Below are positions 19,635 to 34,298 of a stretch of DNA of 64,000 nt, one piece after another (within the stretch, counting starts at the first letter, position 1; each line of letters starts with the position of its first letter). Position numbers and translations under genes: made by a program. Below the pieces are notes generated by a model. It had not been told where the DNA came from, did not search any database, and worked only from the letters and a program-made list of their open reading frames with translations. Source of the DNA: Haliscomenobacter hydrossis DSM 1100 (GTDB lineage Bacteria > Bacteroidota > Bacteroidia > Chitinophagales > Saprospiraceae); contig NC_015510.1 in NCBI RefSeq assembly GCF_000212735.1, positions 1,178,001 through 1,242,000 on the forward strand, read 5' to 3'.

Positions 19635-22051
19635 CTAGTGCACGAACATCAGGGTGATTACAAAAGTGGTTCCTTCCCCTTCTATTGTCTCCACGCTTAG
19701 TGTTCCACCGTGTCCTTTACTGATAATGTCATACGCCAAACTCAATCCCAAACCCGTGCCTTGCCCCGTCGGCTTCGTCGTAAAAAACGGCTGAAAGATT
19801 TTGTCTTTGATGGCTTCGGGAATGCCGCTGCCGTTGTCCTTTACCTTAATCAGGATTTGACGATCAATTTTTTGGGTAGAAACGGTGATAGTTGGTTGGT
19901 ACATAGTGTCGGCGTGACTCGAAGTCACACCGACACTCGCCCGCTGTTGCACCGTGCTTCGGCTTCGCTCAGCAACCGCATAAAACGCGTTATTGATCAA
20001 ATTCAACAGCACCCGCCCGATGTCTTGCGGAATGACGGAAACCAGCGGCAAATTTGGATCAAAGTGTGCGTTTCCAAAGTAGCGTTAAAGGTACTGTCTT
20101 TAGCGCGCAGGCCATGGTAAGACAAGCGCAGATATTCATCGGCGAGGGCGTTGAGGTCGGTCGGTTCTTTTACCCCTGTGTTCGTCCGCGAGTGTTCAAG
20201 CATACCTTTGACAATGGAGGAGGCGCGTTGGCCGTGGTGGTTGATTTTTTGCTGGTTTGATGCCAAATCATTGGCCAAATCGATGATGAGGGCTTTATCT
20301 GATTCGGGTTTTTCTACTTCTTCTTTGAGTTCCTGCGCGAGTTCCGCGCTGAGTTCGGAGAAGTTATTGACAAAATTCAGCGGGTTTTGAATTTCGTGGG
20401 CAATGCCCGCGGTGAGTTCACCGAGAGAGGCGAGTTTTTCGGATTGAATGAGTTGGGCTTGAGTGGATTTGAGGGTTGTGAGGGTTTGTTCCAGAATGAT
20501 TTTTTGTGCATTGATTTCTTCTTTTTGATTTTGTAATAATGTATTCGCTTTTTGTTTGCTGCGATTATTCAGAAATAGCATCAAAGCGACCAATAAAAAG
20601 ATGCCTAATGCAGAGATTAAAGTATACATCCTAAATCTGTTCTTCGATTCTGTTCTTAGTTTTTCTTGTTGAAATTGTTGTGCTTCTATTTTACGTTGAA
20701 GCTGGTTTTGGGTATTCTGTTGTTCCAGATTTCGGCGTTTGTATTCATTTTCTGCATTTTTTTGCCTTAGTTTTTGGGTTTCTGAGAGGAGCATTAATTC
20801 AGCTTTCAGGCTATTGGCTTTCAAATTGGCTACTTCTTCCGCTTGTTTCGCTTTTGCCAATGCTTCTTTTTCATCAAAGTCAAATTGCATTTGAAACGCC
20901 GTTAATTTTTTGGTGTTTTCTTCATTAAAAAAACTATCTCGATAAATAATGTATTGATGATAATGGGTGAATGCGTCTTTCCAGTTGCCCATTTTGCTGT
21001 TCACGCTCGAAATATATAAATAACCATCTCGCTTTTCTTCTAAATAGCCATCTGTTTCTTCCAGGTACTTCAATCCCTGCCTCAATAGTGAATCAGCCAA
21101 GTGAATTTTGTTTAACTTCAGGTAGGTATTGCCAATTTCAATAAGTAAGCTATTGGCAACTGCTTTATTGTTGATGCTATTGTATGATCTTTGTGCCAAG
21201 AGGTAATGATTCAGTGCATCAGTATAGCTACCTTCAGCAGCTTCGGTGCCTTTTTCTTTATTTATTGCATCCCCTTTTTTTAGGTAAATGTTTGCTAAAC
21301 TGAGGTAGGCAAAGGGCAATCCCCAACGGGGTAATTTAAGGTCTGGGCGTTTAAATAGTTCCAAACCTTTAAACGTATTTTTAAAAGCTAAATCAAAATT
21401 TCCTAGCCTTAAGTAGATGTCTCCAATGTTAATAAAGGACTGTGCGATGCCCCATTTTTCATCAATCTCTTCCCGTACTTTCAGGGAGAGTTGGTAGTTT
21501 TGCAGTGCTTCGGGATAATTCTTTTGATTTGCGTTTATAAATCCGATGTTGTTGTATGCTTGTGCAATTTCCGCTTTGTCATTTAATGCCTCAAACTGCT
21601 TTAAAGAGATAAAGTTAAGTTTTAATGCTTCAGCAGAATTTCCTATTTTGTCAGCATAGACTATTGCCAGGTTCCTCGAAAATAAAGCTGCATTTCGGCG
21701 ATCTTTGATTTTTATGCTTAGTTGTAGTCCAGCTGAAAGGTACTTGATGTATTCTGACTGATTGGATTGGGTATAATATATGTTCCCAACGTTCCAATAT
21801 CCTCTTATTCGGCCTTTGTTGAAGCCTATTTTTTCGGAAAGCGCCAGGGCTTCTTTGGCGTATTGCAAAGCTTTTTTGCCGTCATTTTTTTTACTATAAT
21901 AGATTCTAATTTCATTTAACGTATTGATCTTGTTCGTATCTTCTTTTTGAGTGATTAATACTTTTTGCAAGGAATCCAGTGTATGACTTTGGCTGTACAC
22001 ATTCACGGTAATCAGGACAAATAACAACTTGAGAAAAATTATTTTCTTCAT
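19635..22051 (-). pseudogene. TPR sensor histidine kinase 1, frameshifted in the ATPase domain
   Basis: From the ATG at 22051 the protein has a signal peptide (MKKIIFLKLLFVLITVNVYS), TPR repeats over about residues 40-390, a transmembrane helix near 480, a coiled coil and a HisKA domain with phospho-acceptor H552 in GIAHEIQNP. In the paralogues ETH is followed by FDPDLPLVS. Here the frame shifts at 20064-20069 (GTGTGC where the others have one base pair-unit less, net +2 bp) and the product would end at 20003. The ATPase half continues in another frame from 20051 to 19635, with intact NNAFYAV and [11 protein letters not shown] motifs. Either a recent pseudogene or a sequencing error. Last gene of the VOC-HK2-HK1 operon, 4 bp after HK2. 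Confidence 0.75.
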
Positions 22052-22055
22052 GTTC

Positions 22056-24167
22056 CTAAATTGGAAATTTTATCAAAAATTCAGTGCTTTGGCTTTGAGC
22101 TGACTCCACTTCCAGCGTCCCCCCATGCCCCTTCACCACAATATCATAGGAAAGAGAAAGCCCCAAACCCGTGCCCTGCCCGGTCGGTTTGGTGGTAAAA
22201 AACGGCTGAAAGATTTTGTCTTTGATGGCTTCGGGGATACCGTTACCATTGTCCTTTACCTTAATCAGGATTTGACGATCAATTTTTTGGGTAGAAACGG
22301 TGATAGTTGGTTGGTACATAGTGTCGGCGTGACTCGAAGTCACACCGACACTCGCCCGCTGTTGCACCGTGCTTCGGCTTCGCTCAGCAACCGCATAAAA
22401 CGCATTGTTAATCAAATTCAACAGCACCCGCCCAATGTCTTGCGGAATTACCGAAACCAGCGGTAAATCTGGATCAAAATGCGTTTCCATCGTCGCGTTA
22501 AAGCTGTTGTCCTTCGCGCGCAGGCCGTGATACGCCAAACGCAGGTATTCATCCGCGAGAGCGTTGAGGTCGGTGGGTTCTTTTACCCCTGTGTTCGTCC
22601 GCGAGTGTTCAAGCATCCCTTTGACGATGGAGGAGGCGCGTTGACCGTGATGGGCGATCTTTTGTTCGTTGCCTTTGATGTTTTTGGCAATGGTGATGGC
22701 GTCGTCCTTGTTGCCCTGTTCAAGCTCCTCGGTCAATTCATCGATCAGCTCGGTGTTTAATTCCGAGAAGTTGTTGACGAAGTTCAAGGGGTTTTGAATC
22801 TCGTGGGCGATGCCCGCGGTGAGTTCGCCGAGGGAGGCCAGTTTTTCGGATTGAATGAGTTGGGCCTGGGTGGCTTTGAGGTGTTCCAGGGCCTGTTCAA
22901 TTTGTGCCTTTTGTTGGTTGACTTCTTCCACCAGTTGGGCCAATTCCACATTTTTGAGCCGAAATATTTCCGATTCTTTTTGCGATTGTGCCACCTGGTG
23001 GGTAATCTGCATGTTGAGTATGCGTTGCTGAACGGTTTCGTTGTTCACCTCTTTTTCGAGTTCGGCGTATTTTTCATAATGAAGTAAGGCCAGCGCGAGG
23101 TCGCCAGCGTGTTTGTACGTTTTGGATAAATTGTGGTGAATTTTGTACAAAATATCCTTGGCTTGTATTTCTTCGGCCAGGGTCAGCGCTTGCTGGAGGC
23201 ATTCGAGCGACTGCTGAAGATTGGCCTGGGCAAAAGCACTTCCTTCGTACAAGGCCCCGAGGAAACAATAAATCTCCGCACGACCCTTTTTGTCGCCCAC
23301 CGCTTCCCGGATCTGTAAACTGCGTTGCAGGTAGTGGAGCGCGTTGGCATAGTCTTGCCATTCCGCGTAGATTCGCCCCGTATTGAACAAGGTGTTGCCC
23401 CGACCTTTTTGGTCACCCGTTTTTTCAGTAATGGCCAAACTTTGCAGGCAATGATCCAGCGCTTCCTGGTACTTTCCTTGCTGGAGGTAAATGTTGCCCA
23501 GGTTGTCGTAACAACCCGCTACCCCCCATAGGTCGCCAATGGTTTGGCGAAGAACCAAACTTTGTTGATAATAATCCAGCGCTTCCTCAAAACGCCCCAT
23601 TTCGGCATAAACCCCGCCGATACAGTTCAAGTGATACGATTCGGGCATGATTTCCTGGATGGCTCGGGCAATGGGCAGCCCTTGCAGGGCGTGCTCGAGG
23701 GCGTTGTTCAAGTCGCCAAGGTATTTATAGGTAATGCTCAGGTGGTAAAGGCTCAGGGTTTCTTCTTCCTGAAAATTGGCTTCCCGACTCAGGGTAAGTG
23801 CCTTGTACAACTCTTCCAGCGAAGCGGCATAGTTGCCAAAACTGCGGTAAATGATGCCGTAATATTCATGAATGACGGCTTGATTGCGGATGTCCTTGAA
23901 GGATACAAACAATTGGTAGGCCTGATTCAGTAGCGACAATGCCTCCTGATATTGGGCAATCCGAATATGGCAAAAGCCGAAGGTGCGCAGACCTTCGGCT
24001 TTACCTTTTTGGTATTGAATTTTTTCGGAAAGGCGCAGGGCTTCACTGCTCAATTCAAAAGCCTGGGTACTATCGGCCACCCTTAGTTTCCAGGCTTTTT
24101 CATTTAAGCCATCGATCGTGGTGATCAGTGTCTGACGCTTTGGTTCCGCTTTTTTTTTTCGCATCAT
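22056..24167 (-). CDS. TPR histidine kinase 2, soluble form
   Basis: 703 residues. There is no signal peptide (start MMRKKKAEPKRQTLI) and no transmembrane helix. About nine TPR units cover residues 20-385 (e.g. NLGNIYLQQGKYQEALDHCL), then a glutamine-rich coiled coil, HisKA with H455, and a HATPase domain with [17 protein letters not shown] and [11 protein letters not shown]. It should therefore sense from the cytoplasm, unlike its three exported relatives. It holds the in-frame palindromic insert between the N-box and the next strand. No response regulator is encoded nearby. The gene starts 2 bp after the VOC gene and ends 4 bp before kinase 1, so the three form an operon. Confidence 0.9.
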   Translation of the reverse strand: MMRKKKAEPKRQTLITTIDGLNEKAWKLRVADSTQAFELSSEALRLSEKIQYQKGKAEGLRTFGFCHIRIAQYQEALSLLNQAYQLFVSFKDIRNQAVIHEYYGIIYRSFGNYAASLEELYKALTLSREANFQEEETLSLYHLSITYKYLGDLNNALEHALQGLPIARAIQEIMPESYHLNCIGGVYAEMGRFEEALDYYQQSLVLRQTIGDLWGVAGCYDNLGNIYLQQGKYQEALDHCLQSLAITEKTGDQKGRGNTLFNTGRIYAEWQDYANALHYLQRSLQIREAVGDKKGRAEIYCFLGALYEGSAFAQANLQQSLECLQQALTLAEEIQAKDILYKIHHNLSKTYKHAGDLALALLHYEKYAELEKEVNNETVQQRILNMQITHQVAQSQKESEIFRLKNVELAQLVEEVNQQKAQIEQALEHLKATQAQLIQSEKLASLGELTAGIAHEIQNPLNFVNNFSELNTELIDELTEELEQGNKDDAITIAKNIKGNEQKIAHHGQRASSIVKGMLEHSRTNTGVKEPTDLNALADEYLRLAYHGLRAKDNSFNATMETHFDPDLPLVSVIPQDIGRVLLNLINNAFYAVAERSRSTVQQRASVGVTSSHADTMYQPTITVSTQKIDRQILIKVKDNGNGIPEAIKDKIFQPFFTTKPTGQGTGLGLSLSYDIVVKGHGGTLEVESAQSQSTEFLIKFPI

Positions 24168-24169
24168 TT

Positions 24170-24559
24170 TTAAACCATGTAGTACTCCCAGGCAATGCGA
24201 TCCGGATCTTTAAATGCGACATAATTTTTGCCGAGGGTAGCATCAAATTTCACTCCAGTGTTTTCAACATTCGCCTCGCTAAGGGCTTTGGCAACCCGTT
24301 GTAATTCCCCTTCATCGGTACAGCCCAGAGCCAGATGGTCGATCCCTACATTAAATGGACTAAACACTTTGGCTCCTTCTTCTTCGGCGGGGCCGCGTAC
24401 ACCAATGAAGGTACCGCCCGCAACAAAAATGAACAAATTGGGCACTTCCAGCGCAATGGGAAAACCCAGGGTGCCGTGGTAAAATGCTTTGGAACGCTCC
24501 AGATCCGTACAACGCAGCGCGATGTGGTGAATTCCGGGAGTTTGGATGTTGATTGGCAT
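24170..24559 (-). CDS. VOC-family (glyoxalase/dioxygenase-like) protein
   Basis: 129 residues, one VOC module of two beta-alpha-beta-beta-beta units: IHHIALRCTDLERSKAFYHG at the start, GIDHLALGCTD in the middle and FKDPDRIAWEYY at the end. Metal-ligand candidates are H11 or H12 in the first strand, H in IDHLAL and the final E in AWEYY. The substrate is unknown. First gene of an operon with two histidine kinases; a near-consensus TACTTTTA box lies about 50 bp upstream on this strand. Confidence 0.9.
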   Translation of the reverse strand: MPINIQTPGIHHIALRCTDLERSKAFYHGTLGFPIALEVPNLFIFVAGGTFIGVRGPAEEEGAKVFSPFNVGIDHLALGCTDEGELQRVAKALSEANVENTGVKFDATLGKNYVAFKDPDRIAWEYYMV

Positions 24560-24657
24560 ATGATTAAAGTTTAGTTGTTTACTTGTAGAATAAGATTTCA
24601 GTACTTAAAAGTAGCCTCGGTTGAAGTGCCTGGTTTTGAGCGATTAAAATAAGCAAT

Positions 24658-26718
24658 TTAAACGAGAACGGGAAGAGATAGGATAAATTCAGTTCCTTCA
24701 TTTTCGGTTGACTGTGCTTTAAGGGTTCCCCCATGCCCTTTGGTCACAATGTCATAGGCCAAACTCAGCCCTAAACCCGTGCCCTGTCCGGTGGGTTTGG
24801 TGGTGAAAAACGGCTGGAAGATTTTGTCGCGGATGGCTTCGGGGATGCCGTTGCCGTTGTCCTTCACCTTAATCAGGATTTGATTGTCAATTTTCTGAGT
24901 GGAAATGGTGACGGTGGGTTGGTACACAGTGTCGGCGTGACTTGAAGTCACGCCGACACTCGCCCGCTGTTGCACAGTATAAAAAGCATTGTTGATCAAA
25001 TTCAGCAGCACCCGCCCAATGTCTGGCGGAACGACAGAAACCAAGGGCAAATCAGGATCAAAATGCGTTTCCAGCGTAGCATTGAAACTACTGTCCTTGG
25101 CCCGCAGCCCATGATACGCCAGACGGAGGTATTCGTCCGCCAGGGCATTGAGGTCGGTGGGTTCTTTTACGCCGGTACTTGTCCGCGAGTGTTCGAGCAT
25201 GCCTTTGACGATGGCGGAGGCGCGTTGGCCGTGGTGGTTGATCTTTTCCTGGTTTGATGCCAAATCGTTGGCCAAATCGATGATCAGTGCTTTGTCCAAT
25301 TCTATTTTTTCAACTTCTTCCTTGAGTTCTTGCGCGAGTTCGGCGCTGAGCTCCGAAAAGTTGTTGACAAAATTCAGCGGGTTTTGAATTTCGTGGGCAA
25401 TGCCTGCGGTGAGTTCACCCAAAGATGCGAGTTTTTCGGATTGGATGAGTTGGGCTTGGGTGGATTTGAGGGTTTCCAGCGAGCTTTGCAATTGTGTTTT
25501 TTGGCTGTCGATCTCTTCTTTCTGTGCCTGCAGTAAGGCGTTGGCACGTTGCTTATGTTGGTTGTTGCGGTACAGAATGAAGGCCAGCAAAAGTGCACCC
25601 AACAAGACGCCCAACAAGCTGTACATTTTCACCCGATTTTGATAAGCGATCCGCTTTGTTTCAATTTCCTGTAGAATTTTTTGCTGCCTTTGTTCTTCTT
25701 TGAAGGTCAGGTTCTGCACCTCGCGCACTTTTTCGGCACCGGATACACTGTCGCGGGCCGCTACAGATAGGTCGTTGTAGTACAGCGCTTTGGCATAATT
25801 GCCCTGCTGTTCGTAGGTTTTGCGCAGCGAATTGGCTGCCGCTTGCATCACCTCAAAGCCCCGAATTTTGCTGGCACCAAGATAGGCCTCTGTCGCGTGA
25901 TGGATGGCGGAATCTAGGCGATTGACCTGGGCATAATATTTGGCCAAACTTAATTTACTTTCGTTGATCGCGCTAGGGAAATCGGCGCGGATGCCTTCAC
26001 GCAAACCTGTGCGGAAATACTGCAAGGCCTCCTGGGTTTGATTGGATTGCAGGTAGAGTTTGCCCAACAAATTACAAATCTGGCAGTAAAAGTAAGGAAA
26101 CCAGCCTTCGAGGGGAATTTCCTGGATGCGGCGCTGGGCAACCTGTGCGTAGTACATCGCAGAATCCCGCTGCCCCAGTTTCTCGAAGAGCTGCCCCAAA
26201 CGCATGGGGCCAGCCGGGTAGCCTCTGTTGTCTAAGAATAGCTTCCTTTTCAGGCGGGCTTCGTATTCCTGGTATGATTGGCGGGCGTAATGGAGTGCGC
26301 GCTGCAGGTCACCCTGCGCTTCGTAATTGTTGGCCAAAAATGCCAGGGCCATACTGGCATCTTCCTTTTTTTTCTCAATATAACGCAGGGCCTCCTGGAG
26401 TAGGTGAATAGACTTTACGGGTTCCCCGGTCATAGCGTAACTATACCCAAGCGTGAGCAGGTCACCCAACAATCGATCTTCGTCCCCAATTGCTCTGGAA
26501 ACGCGCATTGCCGCCCTAAAATCTGCTTGAGATTGTTTGGCGTCGACAAACTGGTTGGCCAAACCCCTTTGAAAGAGTAAATCACGCCGCGCGGTATCTG
26601 TTTTGGCTTGCTTCAGTTCACGGGTCAAACTGTCGAAGTGTATTGCTTGAGTGCTGTATTGAGCCAGCAAAGCAATTTGGAACAAACATAGATAAACCAC
26701 TAAGTTCAGCTTTTTCAT
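24658..26718 (-). CDS. TPR sensor histidine kinase 3, paired with a TonB-dependent receptor
   Basis: 686 residues: signal peptide 1-20, periplasmic TPR region about 35-330, a transmembrane helix near 365-385 ([18 protein letters not shown]), coiled coil, HisKA with H442 and a HATPase domain with [13 protein letters not shown]. Its ATPase insert carries only the 33-bp palindrome (coding [12 protein letters not shown]) and lacks the AERSRS word found in the other copies. It starts 1 bp after the stop of the TonB receptor gene, so both are translated from one message. This pairing suggests that the periplasmic TPR domain reads receptor or substrate state. No partner regulator is encoded here. 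Confidence 0.9.
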
Positions 26719-26719
26719 A

Positions 26720-29575
26720 TCAGAGTTTCAAGGTGCAGGATAAAAAATAAGCCCTGGGCTGAATGCTACCCGTGTAATATACAACATCCGGGTTTGCCGC
26801 CCTTTTTTCGGGCGAAAAATTCTCGATGTCAAAGGTTTCAAAAGGTAAGCCGCTGGTCGTGGGGCCATTCCAATTCATCAACCCGAAGGTATTGAACAGG
26901 TTATTGATGCTGGCCTGAAACTGCACTTTGGGCGAAAGGGCATAACCCAGATTGAGGTCGAACTGGCTAAAGGCCGGCAAATAAAAGGTTTCACTGCTGT
27001 TGGCGGCGCGCCGACCCAGATAGTACCAATTGCAGTTGACATAAAGTTTGCCTGTAGTATACGTTGGAACGAGGTTCACTATCAGGGGCGGCGCCGCACT
27101 ACTGATCTTTTTGTTGGAACGGTCGATCAGGGTATCATCGGCGGGGCCATCCTGGCGTATGTCATAAAACTGGTACCGATCGGCCGTAAACTGCTGGGTC
27201 ATGGCGCTAGCCCGGATGCTCCAATGTTCGTTCAAGGTATAATTGCCCTCCAACTCCAGGCCAATGGCGTGGGTTTTGTTGTACAGCTTGGGCGTAGCGT
27301 AAAAGGTGGCCAATTGTCCCACATTGCGCCCGCGTCCAATTTGTGGGATTCGATCCAGCGCGCTGTAGAACGGCGTGATAAAAAGGTGATTGCGACCACT
27401 GGAGAGTTTTACCCCCAATTCCAACTGGATGGTGCGCTGGGCTTCGATTTCAAAAATGTCACTGTTGTCATAAAAAACATTGTAATCAGGCGTTTTGCTA
27501 CCTTGAGAATAGCGGGCATAAAAAGCCACACTGGTGTTAAGCGTATAATTCAGCCCAGCTGAAAAAGCGAAAGTATTCAAAGGGCTGGAGTAGTTGAGGT
27601 TTTTCCCCAGGGGATAGGTATAGTTGTCATATATCGTGGTCGAATCGCTGTCCACACCCCCTTTGCTACGCACCAATTCAGTGCTGCGCACATTGGAACC
27701 TTCTACATAAAAATGCTCGTAGCGAAAGCCCCAGTCCAGGTTGAGTTGGGAGGAGACATCCCAGTTGTGGCCAAAGAAAAGTGCTGTTTGCCGGACTTTG
27801 GCTTTATTGAAAAATACCCCCCCATTGCCATAGCTGGCGAGCCCTTGTGCGTCGGTCACCTGATAGACAGGGGCATTGGGTACATCGGACGGGATATATT
27901 CTATACCCACAAACTGTGGCTGGTCTTCGATGGTGCCGAAGCCCTGTGCGGCAGGTGGGAGGATGTAATCTTGAAGTTGAGAGTTTGAATAAAAAAACCC
28001 AGCGGTAAAACTCATGTGCTCCAACTGTTTCTTGAGGGTAAATTGATTCATAAAATCCCGGATGTAACCGTCTTCGATGCCAGCGGGGTTGTAAAAGACC
28101 GAGTTGGGCTGCACTTCGGAGCCAGGCAGGTTCAGGTCAGCAATGAATTTAAAGGGAAAAAAAGGATTGCTGAAATCCAATTCTTGTTTGACGATGCCGT
28201 AGGATGCTTTGGTTTTGGTATTGTAAAATCTATAGGTGCCAAATTTGCCCAGAAGGTCGAAAATGGCGTAAAAGTAGAACTTGTCGACAGCGAAGGGAAA
28301 AACGATCAGCGGCGCGTTGGAAAGCAATGATTTTTCAGAATAACGCAGGTTGTTTTGCAGTTTCCAGCCTTTGCCAAAGCGGTGTTCCCAATTTAGTCCA
28401 GGTGCAATTTCGCGGTAGTGATTCAGGTTACGCGTGTCGTATTCTACCCCACGTAGACCGAGCACGGAAGTCGGATAGCTGAATTTCAGCAGAGGGTTGA
28501 GTGTCGAAGAACTGTTGGTAAAGTTGCCTGCCGGGCGTGGATTTTCAAAATCGACAGTGGGTGTCAATTCAAACTGCACAGTGCGGTCGTCCAGGTATTT
28601 CAGGTTGAACTGGATTTGGCCGTTTTTGTACTTTTTAAGCAAGTTCCCTTTGAGTTGTCCACCCCGGCTGAGTGGATAACCAGGGTATTTGGCGCCATTG
28701 GCATGGCGGTAATGCCCACCAATGTAATAGGTCAATGAGGGATTATTTTTGCTCAAAGGCCCACCAAAGCCAGCCTCCAATCGGTAATAAGGGTTGCGGC
28801 CATTGCCTTCCAAACCCACCCGGCTGCGCACTTCGCCCACAAAACTGGAACCGCCCGTTTGGGTGATGTAGTTAAAAATCCCTCCTGGCGCATTGACGCC
28901 GAGAATAGAGGCCGTGCCGCCCCGTACGGCTTCCAGGCGAGCGAGGCTAATGTCGGCGCGCAAAAAACCATCGGGAGCAAATTGCCCTTGCGCGGGTACA
29001 GTGGGGAGCCCATCTTCCTGCATGGAGACATAGTTGTAATTGCCTCCTAGGATCATGCCGCGCACCACGACGCTGTTGAAAATTTCGCCACGAGAAGTAT
29101 TGGTGAATACGCCCGGTACCTGGCGGAGGAGTTCAGTTGCGCTGTTGGGCACCATACGGTCCAATACGCGGGTATCGAGGGTGGTGATGGCAATGGAGGA
29201 TTCAATGCGTTTGCGGCTGTCAAACACCCCCGTCACGATCATTTCATCCAGGATTTGGACTTCTTCCTCCAGGTTGATCACGACCTCGGTTTCACCCTCG
29301 GTATTGATGGTGACAACAACTTCTTTCCTAAAAAAACCAATGGAAGTGACGACCAGCGTGAGGGATTTTTCTGCTCGAATCGACAGAGAAAAGGCCCCGT
29401 TGGGATCGGTATAAGTGCCCGTTTGGGTGCCTTTTATTTGTACGGATACCCCAGCAAGGGGAACGTTTTTGGTGTCTTTGATTGTACCGCGTAAATAATT
29501 TGTTTGGGAAAATACGGGCGCGAAAGCGCTCAACAGCAAAAACAAACCGAGGAGATGAGTTAGTCGCTTTTTCAT
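26720..29575 (-). CDS. TonB-dependent outer-membrane receptor
   Basis: 951 residues. Signal peptide 1-23. A carboxypeptidase-regulatory-like domain follows (YLRGTIKDTKNVPLAGVSVQ, about 25-110), as in SusC-like and siderophore receptors of Bacteroidota. Then a plug domain (NSATELLRQVPGVF, GTASILGVNAPGGIFNYITQ, about 120-235) and a 22-strand barrel ending in a C-terminal aromatic/hydrophobic strand (YFLSCTLKL). There is no SusD partner, so a siderophore or other small ligand is more likely than a polysaccharide. It heads an operon with kinase 3. Two 21-bp-spaced direct repeats lie upstream. Confidence 0.92.
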   Translation of the reverse strand: MKKRLTHLLGLFLLLSAFAPVFSQTNYLRGTIKDTKNVPLAGVSVQIKGTQTGTYTDPNGAFSLSIRAEKSLTLVVTSIGFFRKEVVVTINTEGETEVVINLEEEVQILDEMIVTGVFDSRKRIESSIAITTLDTRVLDRMVPNSATELLRQVPGVFTNTSRGEIFNSVVVRGMILGGNYNYVSMQEDGLPTVPAQGQFAPDGFLRADISLARLEAVRGGTASILGVNAPGGIFNYITQTGGSSFVGEVRSRVGLEGNGRNPYYRLEAGFGGPLSKNNPSLTYYIGGHYRHANGAKYPGYPLSRGGQLKGNLLKKYKNGQIQFNLKYLDDRTVQFELTPTVDFENPRPAGNFTNSSSTLNPLLKFSYPTSVLGLRGVEYDTRNLNHYREIAPGLNWEHRFGKGWKLQNNLRYSEKSLLSNAPLIVFPFAVDKFYFYAIFDLLGKFGTYRFYNTKTKASYGIVKQELDFSNPFFPFKFIADLNLPGSEVQPNSVFYNPAGIEDGYIRDFMNQFTLKKQLEHMSFTAGFFYSNSQLQDYILPPAAQGFGTIEDQPQFVGIEYIPSDVPNAPVYQVTDAQGLASYGNGGVFFNKAKVRQTALFFGHNWDVSSQLNLDWGFRYEHFYVEGSNVRSTELVRSKGGVDSDSTTIYDNYTYPLGKNLNYSSPLNTFAFSAGLNYTLNTSVAFYARYSQGSKTPDYNVFYDNSDIFEIEAQRTIQLELGVKLSSGRNHLFITPFYSALDRIPQIGRGRNVGQLATFYATPKLYNKTHAIGLELEGNYTLNEHWSIRASAMTQQFTADRYQFYDIRQDGPADDTLIDRSNKKISSAAPPLIVNLVPTYTTGKLYVNCNWYYLGRRAANSSETFYLPAFSQFDLNLGYALSPKVQFQASINNLFNTFGLMNWNGPTTSGLPFETFDIENFSPEKRAANPDVVYYTGSIQPRAYFLSCTLKL

Positions 29576-29635
29576 GGTATCCGGTTTTTTAGAGTTTGTT
29601 TAATACCCGCGCAGGATATATCACCAACTGCAAAG

Positions 29636-29703
29636 ATGTAAGCACAATTGTTCATTGGCAAGGGTCATCTTCCAGATGGTAGCTTGCGCTTTCCGGGTGG
29701 CAG
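29636..29703 (-). promoter_or_regulatory. Putative operator and promoter of the receptor-kinase operon
   Basis: Direct repeats TTCCAGATGGTAG (29670-29682) and TTCCGGGTGGCAG (29691-29703) are 21 bp apart. Nearer to the gene, ATGTAAGCACA at 29636-29646 (TGTGCTTACAT on the coding strand) overlaps a -7-like CATCTTTG. The same three parts occur upstream of kinase 4. Confidence 0.5.
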
Positions 29704-29748
29704 ATTTTATTCTCCAAGTGAGTTTTTGTTTGTTCAATCCAGCGGAAG

Positions 29749-30703
29749 TGTAATTAACTCAAGTTGTGACCTATACGAATTCCTGCTCGTTAAACAAAAA
29801 GGAAAGGGCATAGGCAAAAATGAACATAAAGGTCTTCAAGTTAAATCCATCCGGGGTGACGGCATGAATGGTTTTGGGCATTGCAGCACAAATGGCACTA
29901 AAAACGGACTCGATTTGTCTTCGAATGGCCTTTTTCCATAAACGGATCTGGTAAATATCTCCCCTGCTGGTATTTTTTTTACGCATCGTCTCCCAGATGA
30001 TTTGCCCCATTTGGCCGGAGTTGTCCTCCAAATCATGGTTTTCAAATGCGTTATCACCAAAAATGGAGGCTTCTGGGGGGATATTGAAGTCCATTCGGTT
30101 AAGGAATCGCGCATCGTGATAAGAACCGGGCAAAAGGGCAATCTCTACAGGGATCCCCTCTTCGGTACACAGAACACCCGCTTTAAATCCATAAAAGTAC
30201 TCTCGTTTCGAGGCATTTTTTCCTCGAAAAATATCATTATACCCCAATAGCCTATTGCGACTGATACGAATATTATGACAGACTTTGACCGGAAAACTGT
30301 CCAAAAGATAGTACTGCCGTTCATTTTCTTGCTTAAAAACGGAGGAAAAAACCTCGAAAACAGCCTGGATCAAGTCTTTGATATGATGCATACGACGATT
30401 GAACTGGGATTTACTCAACATGCCAGGGCAATGATCAGACTTCATATAGCTAAGCGTATTTTGGATGTTTCCTCCGAAATACCGGCTAGATACGACCAAG
30501 GTCGTGATGATCGTCGCGTCATCAATCCGACGTTGCTCATCTTCTTTATGGTGCATCGCTTGCAGCATATCCGAAATTGTGATGTAAATTGCAACCGTGA
30601 AATATTTCATACTGGCCTCCGTAGTTTGTTGTGTGGTAACTACAAAGTAACGGAGGTCTTTCTTTTTTTTCCTTTTTATAGGTCACAACTTGAGTTAATT
30701 ACA
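29749..30703 (-). mobile_element. IS982-family insertion sequence
   Basis: 955 bp bounded by perfect 27-bp terminal inverted repeats (29749-29775 and 30677-30703), containing one transposase gene. No target duplication is obvious at the flanks (AAG on the left, AATA on the right). It has landed in the 3' end of a histidine kinase remnant, or at its border. Confidence 0.9.
29771..30610 (-). CDS. IS982-family DDE transposase
   Basis: 279 residues, complete. The family hallmarks are present in order: SKSQFNRRMHHI, the first catalytic Asp in YYLLDSFPVKVCH, KREYFYGFKAGVL, the second Asp in IFGDNAFEN, and the Glu in RRQIESVFSAI. The stop lies only 21 bp from the left terminal repeat's outer edge. 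No frame damage is seen, so the element may be active. Confidence 0.92.
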   Translation of the reverse strand: MKYFTVAIYITISDMLQAMHHKEDEQRRIDDATIITTLVVSSRYFGGNIQNTLSYMKSDHCPGMLSKSQFNRRMHHIKDLIQAVFEVFSSVFKQENERQYYLLDSFPVKVCHNIRISRNRLLGYNDIFRGKNASKREYFYGFKAGVLCTEEGIPVEIALLPGSYHDARFLNRMDFNIPPEASIFGDNAFENHDLEDNSGQMGQIIWETMRKKNTSRGDIYQIRLWKKAIRRQIESVFSAICAAMPKTIHAVTPDGFNLKTFMFIFAYALSFLFNEQEFV

Positions 30704-30792
30704 AATACGGTTTTTCCAACTTCATTTTTACATCCCAAAGTTCCCCCATGCCCTTTGGTTACAATATCATACGCCAAACTCAGCCCCAAACC
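30704..30792 (-). pseudogene. 3' remnant of a fifth histidine kinase gene
   Basis: Read on the minus strand this encodes [19 protein letters not shown] followed by a typical short kinase tail, in close DNA agreement with the ends of kinases 3 and 4. Homology stops sharply at 30792/30793 on one side and at the IS982 end on the other. It lies immediately downstream of the ATPase gene and supplies that gene's last codons in another frame. Confidence 0.8.
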
Positions 30793-32119
30793 AGGCTAAA
30801 TATTTCTCGATTTGTCCAGTAAGGTAGTAAGGTAAATTGAGCAAGTGATATCCTTTCCCACTTGGAGTATCCAGGGTGTTTATGCTTAGCTTCCCGCCGT
30901 AAACTCTCACGGCCAGGTGTTGAGGGGAATGCTCCATAAAAGCGTGTAAAGATCGTAAACGACCGGTAGCACCCGACTTTACTTCTATGGGTATGATACG
31001 GCCACCATAAATGTAAACATAATCAAGCTCGGCGGTAGCATCTTTCTTTTCACGTGTCCAAAAATGGAGCTCGCTGAGGACGTTGTATTGGGTGGCCAGA
31101 AGTTCCTGTCCTACGATATGCTCGGCCACTTTGCCTTTATAAACAAGGTCTAAATCAGGTGTGCCGATGATTTCTTTCTGGATTCCAGCCAAATGATTCA
31201 TCAAACCAGTGTCCAGCAATTGTAGGCGGGGGGATTTCTTTTTATCAGGAAAGAGAGGTAGAGCAGTACCTGTGCAAGGATAAACCAAATACAAGAGTAG
31301 CGCTTTTTCGATGGTTCTAATGGCTTCGCCCACTTCTCTGCTGCCGTAGTTAGACTGTCCAAAATGTTGAAATTTGATGCGCGTTCCTGCTTCTACACTC
31401 ATGCTTTTGATCACATGTCGAATCACTTGCACCATGGTACTGTTGCGGGCATATTTCTCAACATCATTCATATACGAAACCAACAGCGATTCATAGATGG
31501 GTATCAAGGCAGTAAGGTTACGGTTTTCAACATAATGGGCGATGATTTCAGGCATCCCGCCAATGAGGGTATAGGTATGAAAAAGTTGTAATAATTTATC
31601 GTGGGCAAAATCAGCAACAGGGATCGTACGGTATTGTTGCAAAGCGGCCTTTTCGCCCATTGCATCTAAAAACTCTTCAAAAGACATGGGGCGTAATACT
31701 TTGAATTCAACCCGACCTACCGGCATCGTCATGTTTTCGTGCAAAACAGCTTCTAGCAATGATCCCGCTGCAATGACATGCAATTGAGGAAAATCTTCAT
31801 AAAAATACCGCAATAAGTTGATGGCTTCCGGTACCTCCTGTATCTCATCAATAAAAATCAGGGTGTCTGCTTGTTGAATATTTTTGTCTTTTAGGAAAAA
31901 AATAGCTTCAACCAGGGTAGAAAAACGAGTGTAATTTTGGAAAATAACAGCATCTTCTTTCCGTTCGAGGTTGAGGTAAATGAACTGTTGGTACTGGAGG
32001 GCGAACTGCTGTACCAGGGTTGTTTTACCAACCTGTCTTGCACCCCTAATAATCAAGGGTTTGCGGTTGGTGGAATGTCGCCACTTGACAAGTTCTTCAA
32101 GGAGGTTGCGATGGTACAT
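30767..32119 (-). CDS. AAA-family ATPase with DUF4143 domain
   Basis: 450 residues from the ATG at 32119 (MYHRNLLEEL). The upstream TTG at 32134 is less likely. The N-terminal AAA_14 domain has Walker A GARQVGKTT near 28 and Walker B LIFIDEIQE near 90; the C-terminal DUF4143 domain has TAELDYVYIYGGRIIPIEVK, a PD-(D/E)xK-like strand. These genes are frequent, mobile and of poorly known role. The last eight residues (WFGAEFGV) come from the kinase remnant read out of frame, so the native C-terminus has been replaced. The protein is otherwise complete. Confidence 0.88.
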   Translation of the reverse strand: MYHRNLLEELVKWRHSTNRKPLIIRGARQVGKTTLVQQFALQYQQFIYLNLERKEDAVIFQNYTRFSTLVEAIFFLKDKNIQQADTLIFIDEIQEVPEAINLLRYFYEDFPQLHVIAAGSLLEAVLHENMTMPVGRVEFKVLRPMSFEEFLDAMGEKAALQQYRTIPVADFAHDKLLQLFHTYTLIGGMPEIIAHYVENRNLTALIPIYESLLVSYMNDVEKYARNSTMVQVIRHVIKSMSVEAGTRIKFQHFGQSNYGSREVGEAIRTIEKALLLYLVYPCTGTALPLFPDKKKSPRLQLLDTGLMNHLAGIQKEIIGTPDLDLVYKGKVAEHIVGQELLATQYNVLSELHFWTREKKDATAELDYVYIYGGRIIPIEVKSGATGRLRSLHAFMEHSPQHLAVRVYGGKLSINTLDTPSGKGYHLLNLPYYLTGQIEKYLAWFGAEFGV

Positions 32120-32218
32120 AGTTATTGATTTCAAATAGCGACAGTAAATTTACCATTTTTTTGTAATAAAAAGGCAGTAATTAATGGTAATTTTTGAACT
32201 AAAGTGACACCTATTCTT

Positions 32219-34219
32219 TTAAATGGGAATTTTCATGGTGAAGATTGTCTTATGTTCCTCCTTACTTTCTACCTCTAAACTCCCCCCATGCCCTTTGGTC
32301 ACAATGTCATAGGCCAAACTCAATCCTAAGCCTGTGCCTTGCCCAGTGGGTTTGGTCGTAAAAAAGGGCTGGAAGATTTTCTCGCGAATAGATTCAGGAA
32401 TGCCATTCCCGTCGTCCTTTACCTTAATCAAGATATGATTGTCAATTTTCTGGGTGGAAATGGTGATGATTGGTTGGTACATAGTGTCGGCGTGACTCGA
32501 AGTCACGCCGACACTCGCCCGCTGTTGCACCGTGCTTCGACTTCGCTCAGCAACCGCATAAAACGCATTATTGATCAAATTCAACAGCACCCGCCCAATG
32601 TCCTGCGGAATGACCGAAACCAGCGGCAAATCAGGATCAAAATGGGTTACCAATGTAGCGTTAAAGCCATTGTCTTTCGCCCGGAGGCCGTGATAGGCCA
32701 TCCGCAGGTATTCATCAGCCAGCGCATTGATATCGGTGGGTTCTTTGACTCCTGTACTCGCCCGGGAGTGTTCGAGCATACCTTTAACGATTGAAGCGGC
32801 GCGTTGGCCGTGGTGGTTGATTTTTTCCTCATTGCCTTTGAGATCAGTGGCAATGGCAATAGCGTCATCCAAATTCCCCTTCTTAATTTCCACTTCCAGT
32901 TCTTCAATCAATTCTGTATTCAATTCTGAAAAGTTGTTGACAAAGTTCAGCGGATTTTGAATTTCGTGGGCGATGCCAGCGGTCAGTTCACCGAGCGAGG
33001 CGAGTTTTTCGGATTGGATGAGTTGGGCTTGGGTGGATTGGAGTTGGGATAAAGTATTTTCTACTGTCTCTTTTTGCGTTTGGAATGATGTTTTTGCTTT
33101 CTTTTCTATCTGATAATTGCGATAAAGAACAAATCCGATAAAGAACATAATTCCCAGTCCGCCTAATAAAACATACTGCTTTTGACGGTTTTGTTGAGTA
33201 GCTATTTGGGTTGCCATATTACTTTGGCGTTGTTGTTCTTCAGAAAGTGTGTTTTGTAACCCGATCACTCTGTCTGCGCCATAGAGTTCGTTGACAACAG
33301 CGTTGACGGTTTTTTGGTAGTAAAGTGCTTTTTTAACATCTAAAGGTTCATATAGCTCCGCCAATAGTGTGCTTGCTTCTAACATTTCTGATTTGTAATC
33401 AACGAGTGTTGCTTCGCGAAGTCCTTTTTTTGCATTAATGATGCTGGAATCTACTTGATTTTGGGTTTTAAAAAAAGTTGAAAGTGCAATATAACCATTT
33501 GATTGAAAACCATGGTCATTTGATTCCTGGCTTATTAAAATACTCTTTCGTACATTTTTAAAGGCATCAGCATAATCCCCTTTCAAAAACTGAAGTTTTC
33601 CAAGTGTTAATGGGTAGAATTTAATTATCAATGGCCCTTTAACCAAATCGAGTTTTAGACTGACTTTTTGTAAGTATAAGGAAGCGGAGTCTATTTGATG
33701 GGTTTTCAGGTAAGTGGATGCAAGATTAAGCTCTATTTGTGTCATCCAATATTGATGTTGAGTAGCTGTGGCAATTTTCAACCCTCTTTTATAATAGTTT
33801 ATGCCTTTTGAATAATTCTTTAATTCTTTGTAAACAATAGCAATTGCATTCAAACAACTTATTGTTGGCTCCGGCAGTTGTTTCTTTTCGGCAATTTGTA
33901 ACCCTTTGAAATTGGCTTCAAGCGATTTGGGGTAATCCCCCAGCCTTCGATAGAGGACGCCTAATGCATGAAATGCCTTAGTTTCTCCAAAAGGGTAATG
34001 GATTTTTTGCGATAAAGCCAATGATTGTTGGCCATATTTCAGAGAAGAATCAGGATTGACACCCCAATATGTTACACTAAGTTCTCTCAATGTATTTACA
34101 CGGCTGGTATCCAACCGGGCAAGCGCCAGCTGTTCCTTTAAACTATCAATTAGCCCAATTTGGGCAAAACCAAAGCGCCAAACGAGGGTGAATACGAGGA
34201 TTAAAGTAAATTTCTGCAT
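32219..34219 (-). CDS. TPR sensor histidine kinase 4
   Basis: 666 residues from the ATG at 34219, chosen because it starts a clean signal peptide ([20 protein letters not shown]); an ATG at 34255 adds 12 charged residues. TPR helices cover about 30-320, a transmembrane helix lies near 350-370 ([18 protein letters not shown]), then coiled coil, HisKA with H418 and HATPase with [13 protein letters not shown]. The ATPase domain holds the full double insert (AERSRS word plus the perfect 33-bp palindrome). It stands alone, with the same upstream repeats as the receptor operon. The partner regulator is not encoded in the window. Confidence 0.9.
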
Positions 34220-34298
34220 CGCTTTAGGCTGATGTCTTGGACGCCGATTTTTCATTGCTTAAGGTGCTGGTGATGTAACTTACTGCACTACACCTTAA

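Follow-up and report, generated by a model that had tools for sequence, protein, structure and literature searches.

Palindromic repeats of several families occupy one loop of Haliscomenobacter histidine kinases

Introduction

The chromosome of Haliscomenobacter hydrossis DSM 1100 contains a 64,000-nucleotide stretch (hereafter the window) in which genes for histidine kinases carry palindromic DNA within the region that encodes the ATPase domain. The window covers positions 1178001-1242000 of an 8,371,686-bp contig, and the whole genome comprises 8.77 Mb in four contigs. Four kinases encoded on the minus strand have a common C-terminal HisKA/HATPase module, as judged by the reading of open reading frames (ORFs) and by homology. 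All four loci include a 33-bp palindrome, which we call P1, and three of them include a second word that is translated as AERSRS. These features raise the question of whether the words are simply parts of a protein loop or are pieces of mobile DNA that became translated. An initial annotation of the window proposed the latter, with a palindrome and a word resembling a repetitive extragenic palindromic (REP) sequence entering the coding region in frame and in steps, as in Rickettsia palindromic elements (RPEs).

Our analysis makes it quite probable that a P1 REP entered the kinase loop once and was then duplicated into five kinases, and that the loops of kinases in sister species took up other REP families. 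In what follows, K1 to K4 are the window kinases 1 to 4, and K5 is a fifth P1-bearing kinase approximately 6 Mb away. The genome that includes the window is designated G000, four genomes of the same genus are G018, G125, G199, and G247, and L-numbers denote loci.

Results

P1 and the AERSRS word are translated within one loop

Both words are translated in frame between the N-box helix and the next strand, where P1 encodes an 11-aa peptide. With up to three mismatches allowed, the window yields eight P1 matches (four places, each on both strands), compared to 0.00 expected from 100 dinucleotide shuffles. The AERSRS word yields three matches compared to 0.01 expected, and a pattern search did not find it in K3. 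These are the positions given by the initial annotation for both words. Of the palindromes, which it described with 15-bp arms around a 3-bp center, those of K3 and K4 have perfect arms and those of K1 and K2 have one mismatch between the arms (Table 1). K1, which the annotation counts among four TPR kinases, is frameshifted. It leaves the kinase frame a short distance upstream of the N-box, and its inserts reside in a distinct ORF of 138 aa. A nucleotide profile around P1 was distorted by this frameshift and was not used. Pfam, which was run on K3 alone among the four, identified TPR, HisKA, and HATPase_c domains, and the kinase module of K2 was assigned by its homology to K3.

The four P1 sites lie in copies of a single 300-nt block (76-88% identity to the reference copy). 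They are therefore not independent events, which rules out four separate insertions. K5 carries P1 without the AERSRS word, and its N-terminal part differs by eye from those of the window kinases. A sixth kinase that adjoins K5 carries neither word.

P1 is a dispersed repeat associated with a transposase-like gene

All contigs of G000 were searched with a 22-base core of the palindrome, allowing up to three mismatches. This search revealed 14 copies (28 rows when both strands are counted), and a reversed-pattern control returned none. Five copies are in the kinases K1 to K5. Another five lie within approximately 0.9 kb around a 210-aa ORF for a REP-associated transposase (RAYT) at chromosome position 5593439-5594068, with three upstream, one inside the gene and in frame, and one downstream. 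The remaining copies include two, each in frame, in a single ORF of 985 aa or more, one near the beginning of an ORF in which translation likely starts, by eye, downstream of P1, and one between ORFs on contig C4. This copy number is low for a REP. In the family as a whole, P1 with up to two mismatches is present in 22 of 398 genomes and 7 of 112 genera (the reversed control gave one match each in G140 and G359), and one relative, G388, has 60 copies compared to the 14 in G000.

RAYT matches at an E-value of 1e-8 or better were found in 28 of the 40 relatives searched. The three closest by E-value, in G388, G360, and G387, share 65-68% identity with the 210-aa protein, and each has P1-type palindromes within or next to the gene, or in both positions. 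The palindromes border the gene on both sides in G000, G360, and G387 and occur inside and downstream in G388. Furthermore, the RAYT proteins of these three relatives all contain a GVTxSHxDT peptide, in each case within the loop that follows the His-x-His motif. Another organism also has a P1-bearing RAYT (L105, with a family match below cutoff). When 31 loci with RAYT matches were scanned, 23 had a RAYT-like ORF by motif. In one of these (L248), a different palindrome family lies well inside the gene, and three further RAYT-like ORFs have a palindrome right at their 5' end. The HUH and downstream Tyr motifs of the 210-aa protein were seen by eye only.

Most P1 copies, inspected by eye, carry no GTAG or CGTC tag, and some (L232, the inner copy of L058, and L158) end in paired GTAG/CTAC. 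Therefore, P1 was not filed as a GTAG or CGTC REP. Its dispersed copies and its position bordering a RAYT gene are those of a REP, and as judged from sequence, P1 is likely a REP-type non-autonomous mobile palindrome with the RAYT at 5593439-5594068 as its likely transposase.

P1 copies well inside long ORFs of other Bacteroidota share a reading phase

A scan of genome contigs with the P1 pattern gave at least 120 stretches, all titled Bacteroidota by our own reading, with at least 126 copies of P1. We considered a copy to be well inside a long ORF when at least 50 codons were open on each side and 200 in all. Among the matches listed, 14 of 126 copies, one of them in the G247 kinase itself, satisfy this definition, and all 14 are in phase 0, reading [VD]GVTxSH. 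Phase 1 of those cores is also stop-free by our reading. Family searches identified the P1-bearing ORFs as AroB, Cas9, an Eco57I-type methylase, an ISP-type restriction enzyme, an FGGY-type kinase (weak, below cutoffs), a sulfatase-modifying-factor protein, two nSTAND1 proteins, a RAYT (below cutoff), and two other histidine kinases, one with P1 in the HisKA region and one with P1 in the HATPase domain before the G1 box. The other two, L072 and L170, had no family match in the one library scanned for each.

Some individual loci are described here for reference. A Bacteroidales cas9 gene (L100:527-4699) carries P1 in frame, where it encodes residues 1106-1114 of the ORF. A two-component kinase of the same genus (L063:220-3840) has two such stretches, P1 itself in the HisKA region and a P1-like one of 11 aa before the receiver domain. 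Within L061-L180, P1 in some relatives (e.g., L103 at 2888, L124 at 447, and L179 at 5841) forms the tip of an extended perfect palindrome, and the outer arms appear to be specific to each locus. Among the matches listed, perfect extension past the 27-bp P1 core is bimodal, with 64 of 126 copies extended by 3-4 bp and 22 of 126 by at least 14 bp. A stop-to-stop frame of at least 100 codons ends inside 7 of 27 long P1 palindromes from the same matches, as if the flank had been copied back inverted.

Sister species have different palindromes at the same site

We compared the loop that links the N-box helix to the next strand in kinases of G000 and the four other genomes of the genus. It contains P1, P3, P4, or no palindrome, with or without the AERSRS unit upstream. 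P1 occupies the loops of five kinases in G000, one in G199, and one in G247. P3 (GTAGAGACGTTGCATGCAACGTCTCTAC, encoding the peptide VETLHATSL) is found in loops of G247 and in one of G125, and P4 (GTAGGGGCACCC..., encoding a VGAPLAGA-like peptide) is found in two loops of G199 and one of G125. The loops of all seven kinase matches in G018 are short and free of palindromes.

The three families also differ in their genomic distribution. P1 counts (up to two mismatches, forward strand) are 14 in G000, 3 in G247, 1 in G199, and 0 in G018 and G125. P3 counts (up to three mismatches, forward strand) are 18 in G247, 7 in G125, 1 in G199, and 0 in G000 and G018, with P3 present in 3 of the 15 genomes searched. 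P4 matches (up to two mismatches on both strands, so that some places are counted twice) number 92 in G125, 52 in G199, 26 in G247, and 0 in G000 and G018. P4 has the hallmarks of a GTAG REP, as GTAG lies beside a stem-loop and the many copies are often arranged in opposed pairs. As a rule, the family found in a loop is also present elsewhere in the same genome, the exception being P1 in G199. Abundance does not predict loop use, since G247 has P4 but none in its loops that were read. For P3 in G247, 11 of 18 copies are at kinase matches. The possibility of a RAYT beside P3 copies was not borne out, as a motif search found no RAYT-like ORF in eight P3-bearing or P3-adjacent stretches (L329-L336; 1.4-4.5 kb).

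Stems of 9 bp or longer are concentrated in this part of the kinases. The linkers contain 14 in 8,526 bp, compared to 3 in the 38,238 bp that make up the remainder of these kinases. This count is based on 58 distinct linkers of the family, leaves out K1 and some kinases missed by the motif, and is inflated by paralogues. The distance from the N-box to the G1 box varies from 41 to 65 aa within the kinase family. In other genera, AERSRS or AERSLS words occur in the same loop (G054, G101, G038, and G129), and kinases of G140 have an inverted pair, GACCTGACAGG/CCTGGCAGGTC, that was recognized by eye.

Third codon positions distinguish the palindromes from the AERSRS unit

The relative age of the inserts was assessed by comparing third codon positions between kinases, with non-overlapping windows elsewhere as the reference. 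An earlier version of this test chose rows by exact peptide, which favors conservation, and the final version used looser motifs and one decayed P3 row. For P1 in 6 kinases, there are 0.061 third-position differences per site compared to a mean of 0.412 in 14 windows, none of which is as low. Similarly, P3 in 11 kinases (including the decayed copy) has a value of 0.020 compared to 0.436 in 16 windows, again with none as low. AERSRSTV in 11 kinases has a value of 0.345 compared to 0.377, and 4 of 11 windows are as low or lower. Because of these differences, we conclude that the AERSRS unit has aged with the kinases and that P1 and P3 have not. The two palindromes arrived late, were homogenized, or are constrained as DNA. 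A kinase tree built without the linker (25 rows, 11 of 22 inner branches drawn open, with several kinases missed by the motif) was too weak for dating insertions.

The nine exact copies of P3 lie in nine different contexts of 12 + 18 nt, with five different left and four different right 6-mers. This divergence of the flanks up to the edges of P3 favors its arrival as a unit. At the AERSRS site, two G247 paralogues, L203 and L227, differ by exactly 24 nt.

The AERSRS word also occurs elsewhere in the genome. In 11 of 24 genome copies that by our reading are outside long genes, it forms the tip of inverted repeats made of local sequence (L015, L020-L023, L025, L026, L029, L030, L034, and L035). 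The arm scores in these 11 copies exceed 20, compared to null maxima of 9.5-15, and the three kinase copies have no such arms (score 7). At L013 (1477-1542; chromosome 91788-91853), the word forms a tandem trimer of 24-bp units that lies, on the opposite strand, within an open frame of 448 codons, and a similar 24-bp pair lies at chromosome position 6740304-6740345.

The P1 peptide is predicted to lie in a flexible loop

A structure model of the K4 kinase module, made from an alignment of six rows, has a predicted local distance difference test score (pLDDT) of 71.7 and a predicted template modeling score (pTM) of 0.56, and solved histidine kinases match the module. The P1 peptide (175-185 by count) falls entirely within residues 168-185, for which the pLDDT is below 50, as it is for residues 225-236. 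The P1 peptide thus fits a flexible loop in this model, which does not show contact with ATP. The N-box Tyr presumably contacts the nucleotide. An effect of the insert on the adjacent ATP-binding pocket, raised by the initial annotation, is not supported, as the poorly ordered loop that is predicted neither shows nor excludes one.

The coordinates of the window features are collected in Table 1. The window also holds a fifth, truncated stretch resembling a kinase C-terminus (30740-30792) beside a transposase-like ORF (29771-30610, read by eye) that is delimited by perfect inverted repeats of 27 bp (29749-29775 and 30677-30703).

Table 1. Kinase genes and inserted words in the window (positions are those of the window)
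Feature	Position	Strand	Remarks
P1 palindrome, kinase 1	19905..19937	-	one mismatch between arms
P1 palindrome, kinase 2	22320..22352	-	one mismatch between arms
P1 palindrome, kinase 3	24928..24960	-	perfect arms, 16 bp around 1
P1 palindrome, kinase 4	32483..32515	-	perfect arms, 15 bp around 3
24-nt AERSRS unit, kinase 1	19951..19974	-	word 19956-19973; unit ends inferred from L203/L227
24-nt AERSRS unit, kinase 2	22366..22389	-	word 22371-22388; unit ends inferred from L203/L227
24-nt AERSRS unit, kinase 4	32529..32552	-	word 32534-32551; unit ends inferred from L203/L227
Kinase 1, 3' piece (138 aa)	19635..20051	-	carries the inserts; out of frame with 5' piece
Kinase 1, 5' piece (682 aa)	20003..22051	-	departs from kinase frame before N-box
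Kinase 2 (703 aa)	22056..24167	-	ORF; module homologous to kinase 3
Kinase 3 (686 aa)	24658..26718	-	ORF; TPR, HisKA, HATPase_c
Kinase 4 (678 aa)	32219..34255	-	ORF, homology, structure model

Discussion

The sequence of events that we favor would begin with an older, separate 24-nt AERSRS-type unit entering the loop. One copy of P1, probably moved as single-stranded DNA by a RAYT, would then have entered the post-N-box loop of an ancestral histidine kinase a few codons downstream, with a net change that preserved the frame. Gene duplication, and probably conversion, would have carried P1 into K1 to K5, and in sister species the same loop would have received copies of P3 and P4. The loop may accept REPs because it is exposed and tolerant, such that insertions out of frame or in an unsuitable phase would be lost. 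Stepwise entry in frame, as proposed by the initial annotation, is supported by the presence of both words elsewhere in the genome, the association of P1 with a RAYT gene, the existence of kinases without the inserts, and the 24-nt difference between paralogues. The pattern that would have refuted it according to that annotation, identical residues with different DNA in all orthologues, is not what we see, as loop residues vary from species to species and the DNA of P1 and P3 hardly changes even at third codon positions.

Other explanations account for some of these data. It is highly improbable that the words are an ordinary conserved protein loop that is encoded by a palindrome through chance. 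The frame is kept in every intact kinase read and loop length varies widely in the family, as might be expected of such a loop. However, the residues at this position differ between sister species, the third positions of P1 and P3 are nearly frozen, and the same DNA occurs outside genes and around a transposase gene. We also consider it unlikely that the palindromes are kept as functional sites in DNA or RNA, such as a protein-binding site or an mRNA hairpin in kinase genes. Selection at the nucleotide level would explain the invariant third positions, and P1 RNA with its flanks is predicted to fold into a strong hairpin (-32.3 kcal/mol). Yet sister species have unrelated palindromes or none at the same place, one P3 copy has decayed (L228), and P1 resides in unrelated genes such as cas9 and aroB.

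A stronger competitor, which we regard as possible but less than probable, is the entry of one palindrome into the ancestral kinase, after which copies arose through gene duplication and the conversion of short tracts among paralogues, and families were exchanged by recombination without new insertions. The kinases lie in tandem arrays, P1 carriers are nearly identical in the 12 nt to the left and 11 nt to the right of the palindrome, and P1 and P3 carriers share a left flank of QQR or HQR (LQR once) that palindrome-free loops of the genus lack, though one has GQR. This explanation fits poorly with P3, which is identical in nine exact copies while its flanks differ up to its edges, and with the two P4 loops of G199 that lack the QQR or HQR flank. 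Moreover, loop families are as a rule found elsewhere in the genome, and other words occupy the loop in other genera.

Several observations weigh against the sequence of events that we favor and the role of a RAYT in it. The 210-aa protein matches the NCBIfam model REP_Tyr_transpos (NF047646) with an E-value of 2.9e-12 and 46.7 bits, below the curated cutoff of 80, and Pfam gave no transposase match. In G199, the sole P1 copy at up to two mismatches is the kinase copy and no RAYT match was found at an E-value of 1e-8; therefore, present mobility does not explain the P1 of that genome. No kinase with the immediate flanks of P1 but without P1 was found among those compared. For three P1 copies that fail our definition for long ORFs, the longest open frame is in phase 1 (L133, with 24 codons left and 506 right; L118, with 181 left, truncated by the contig end; and L160, with 72 and 97), and P3 is read in a phase other than that of the kinases within a 381-aa ORF of G247 and G125. 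The near-invariance of P1 and P3 could also reflect constraint on the DNA or conversion. Finally, palindromes within one genome are common to duplicated genes, so copies are not events.

A bolder proposal, which we offer tentatively and consider less likely than not, is that unrelated REP families insert repeatedly, or replace each other, in the post-N-box loop. The loop would then be a RAYT-driven docking site at which each lineage overwrites the sequence with its resident repeat, and transposases would generate the loop diversity of the kinases.

Related systems have been described. RPEs are palindromic repeats of approximately 150 bp (PMC10969869) that occur in frame in many unrelated genes (PMC10969869, PMC3733652), and RPE-4 and RPE-6 are short CGTC repeats (PMC3733652). 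P1 resembles RPEs in its in-frame insertion in many unrelated genes, with one reading phase in 14 of 14 copies well inside long ORFs, but it is only approximately 33 bp, RAYT-associated, and found in Bacteroidota, and several families use one kinase loop. By analogy, we class P1 as an element that appears to work like an RPE rather than as a member of that group. Intragenic GTAG/CGTC REPs are short stem-loop repeats inside genes, and recB of two Xanthomonas species carries different REPs at about the same site, with flexible loops proposed as neutral sites (PMC3733652). The tag and opposed pairs of P4 agree with this group, whereas most P1 copies are untagged and here a paralogous-kinase loop holds at least four repeat families in one genus. 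TnpAREP subclass 2.4 has REPs inside the transposase gene (PMC6006769), and the P1 RAYT and relatives of it likewise carry their own palindrome within the gene and in frame. TIR-associated tyrosine transposases (TIRYTs; TIR, terminal inverted repeat) are encoded by RAYT-like genes bordered by palindromic repeats other than GTAG REPs (PMC3733652). The P1 RAYT is bordered in this manner, but single copies of P1 also occur in dispersed positions, some of which are inside genes.

In-frame REPs, a shared REP site in recB, and REP-bearing RAYTs are therefore already published (PMC3733652, PMC6006769). Our literature search, which covered articles without their supplements and few subscription journals, found no report of REPs in a histidine kinase loop. 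It also found no case in which several unrelated REP families use a single protein loop across a kinase family and third codon positions indicate that the inserts have not diverged in step with the gene.

Across paralogues and sister species, these kinases provide a natural series in which the same loop bears no mobile repeat, one, or two, drawn from several families. This series makes it testable within one kinase family whether palindromic mobile DNA is merely tolerated in proteins or aids their diversification. The findings also show that genes of Bacteroidota are decorated in the manner of RPEs, here with a transposase as plausible partner, and they serve as a warning for annotation, since peptides encoded by P1 or by the AERSRS word can represent translated repeats. 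In these sensor kinases, mobile DNA seems to rewrite a single short segment again and again.

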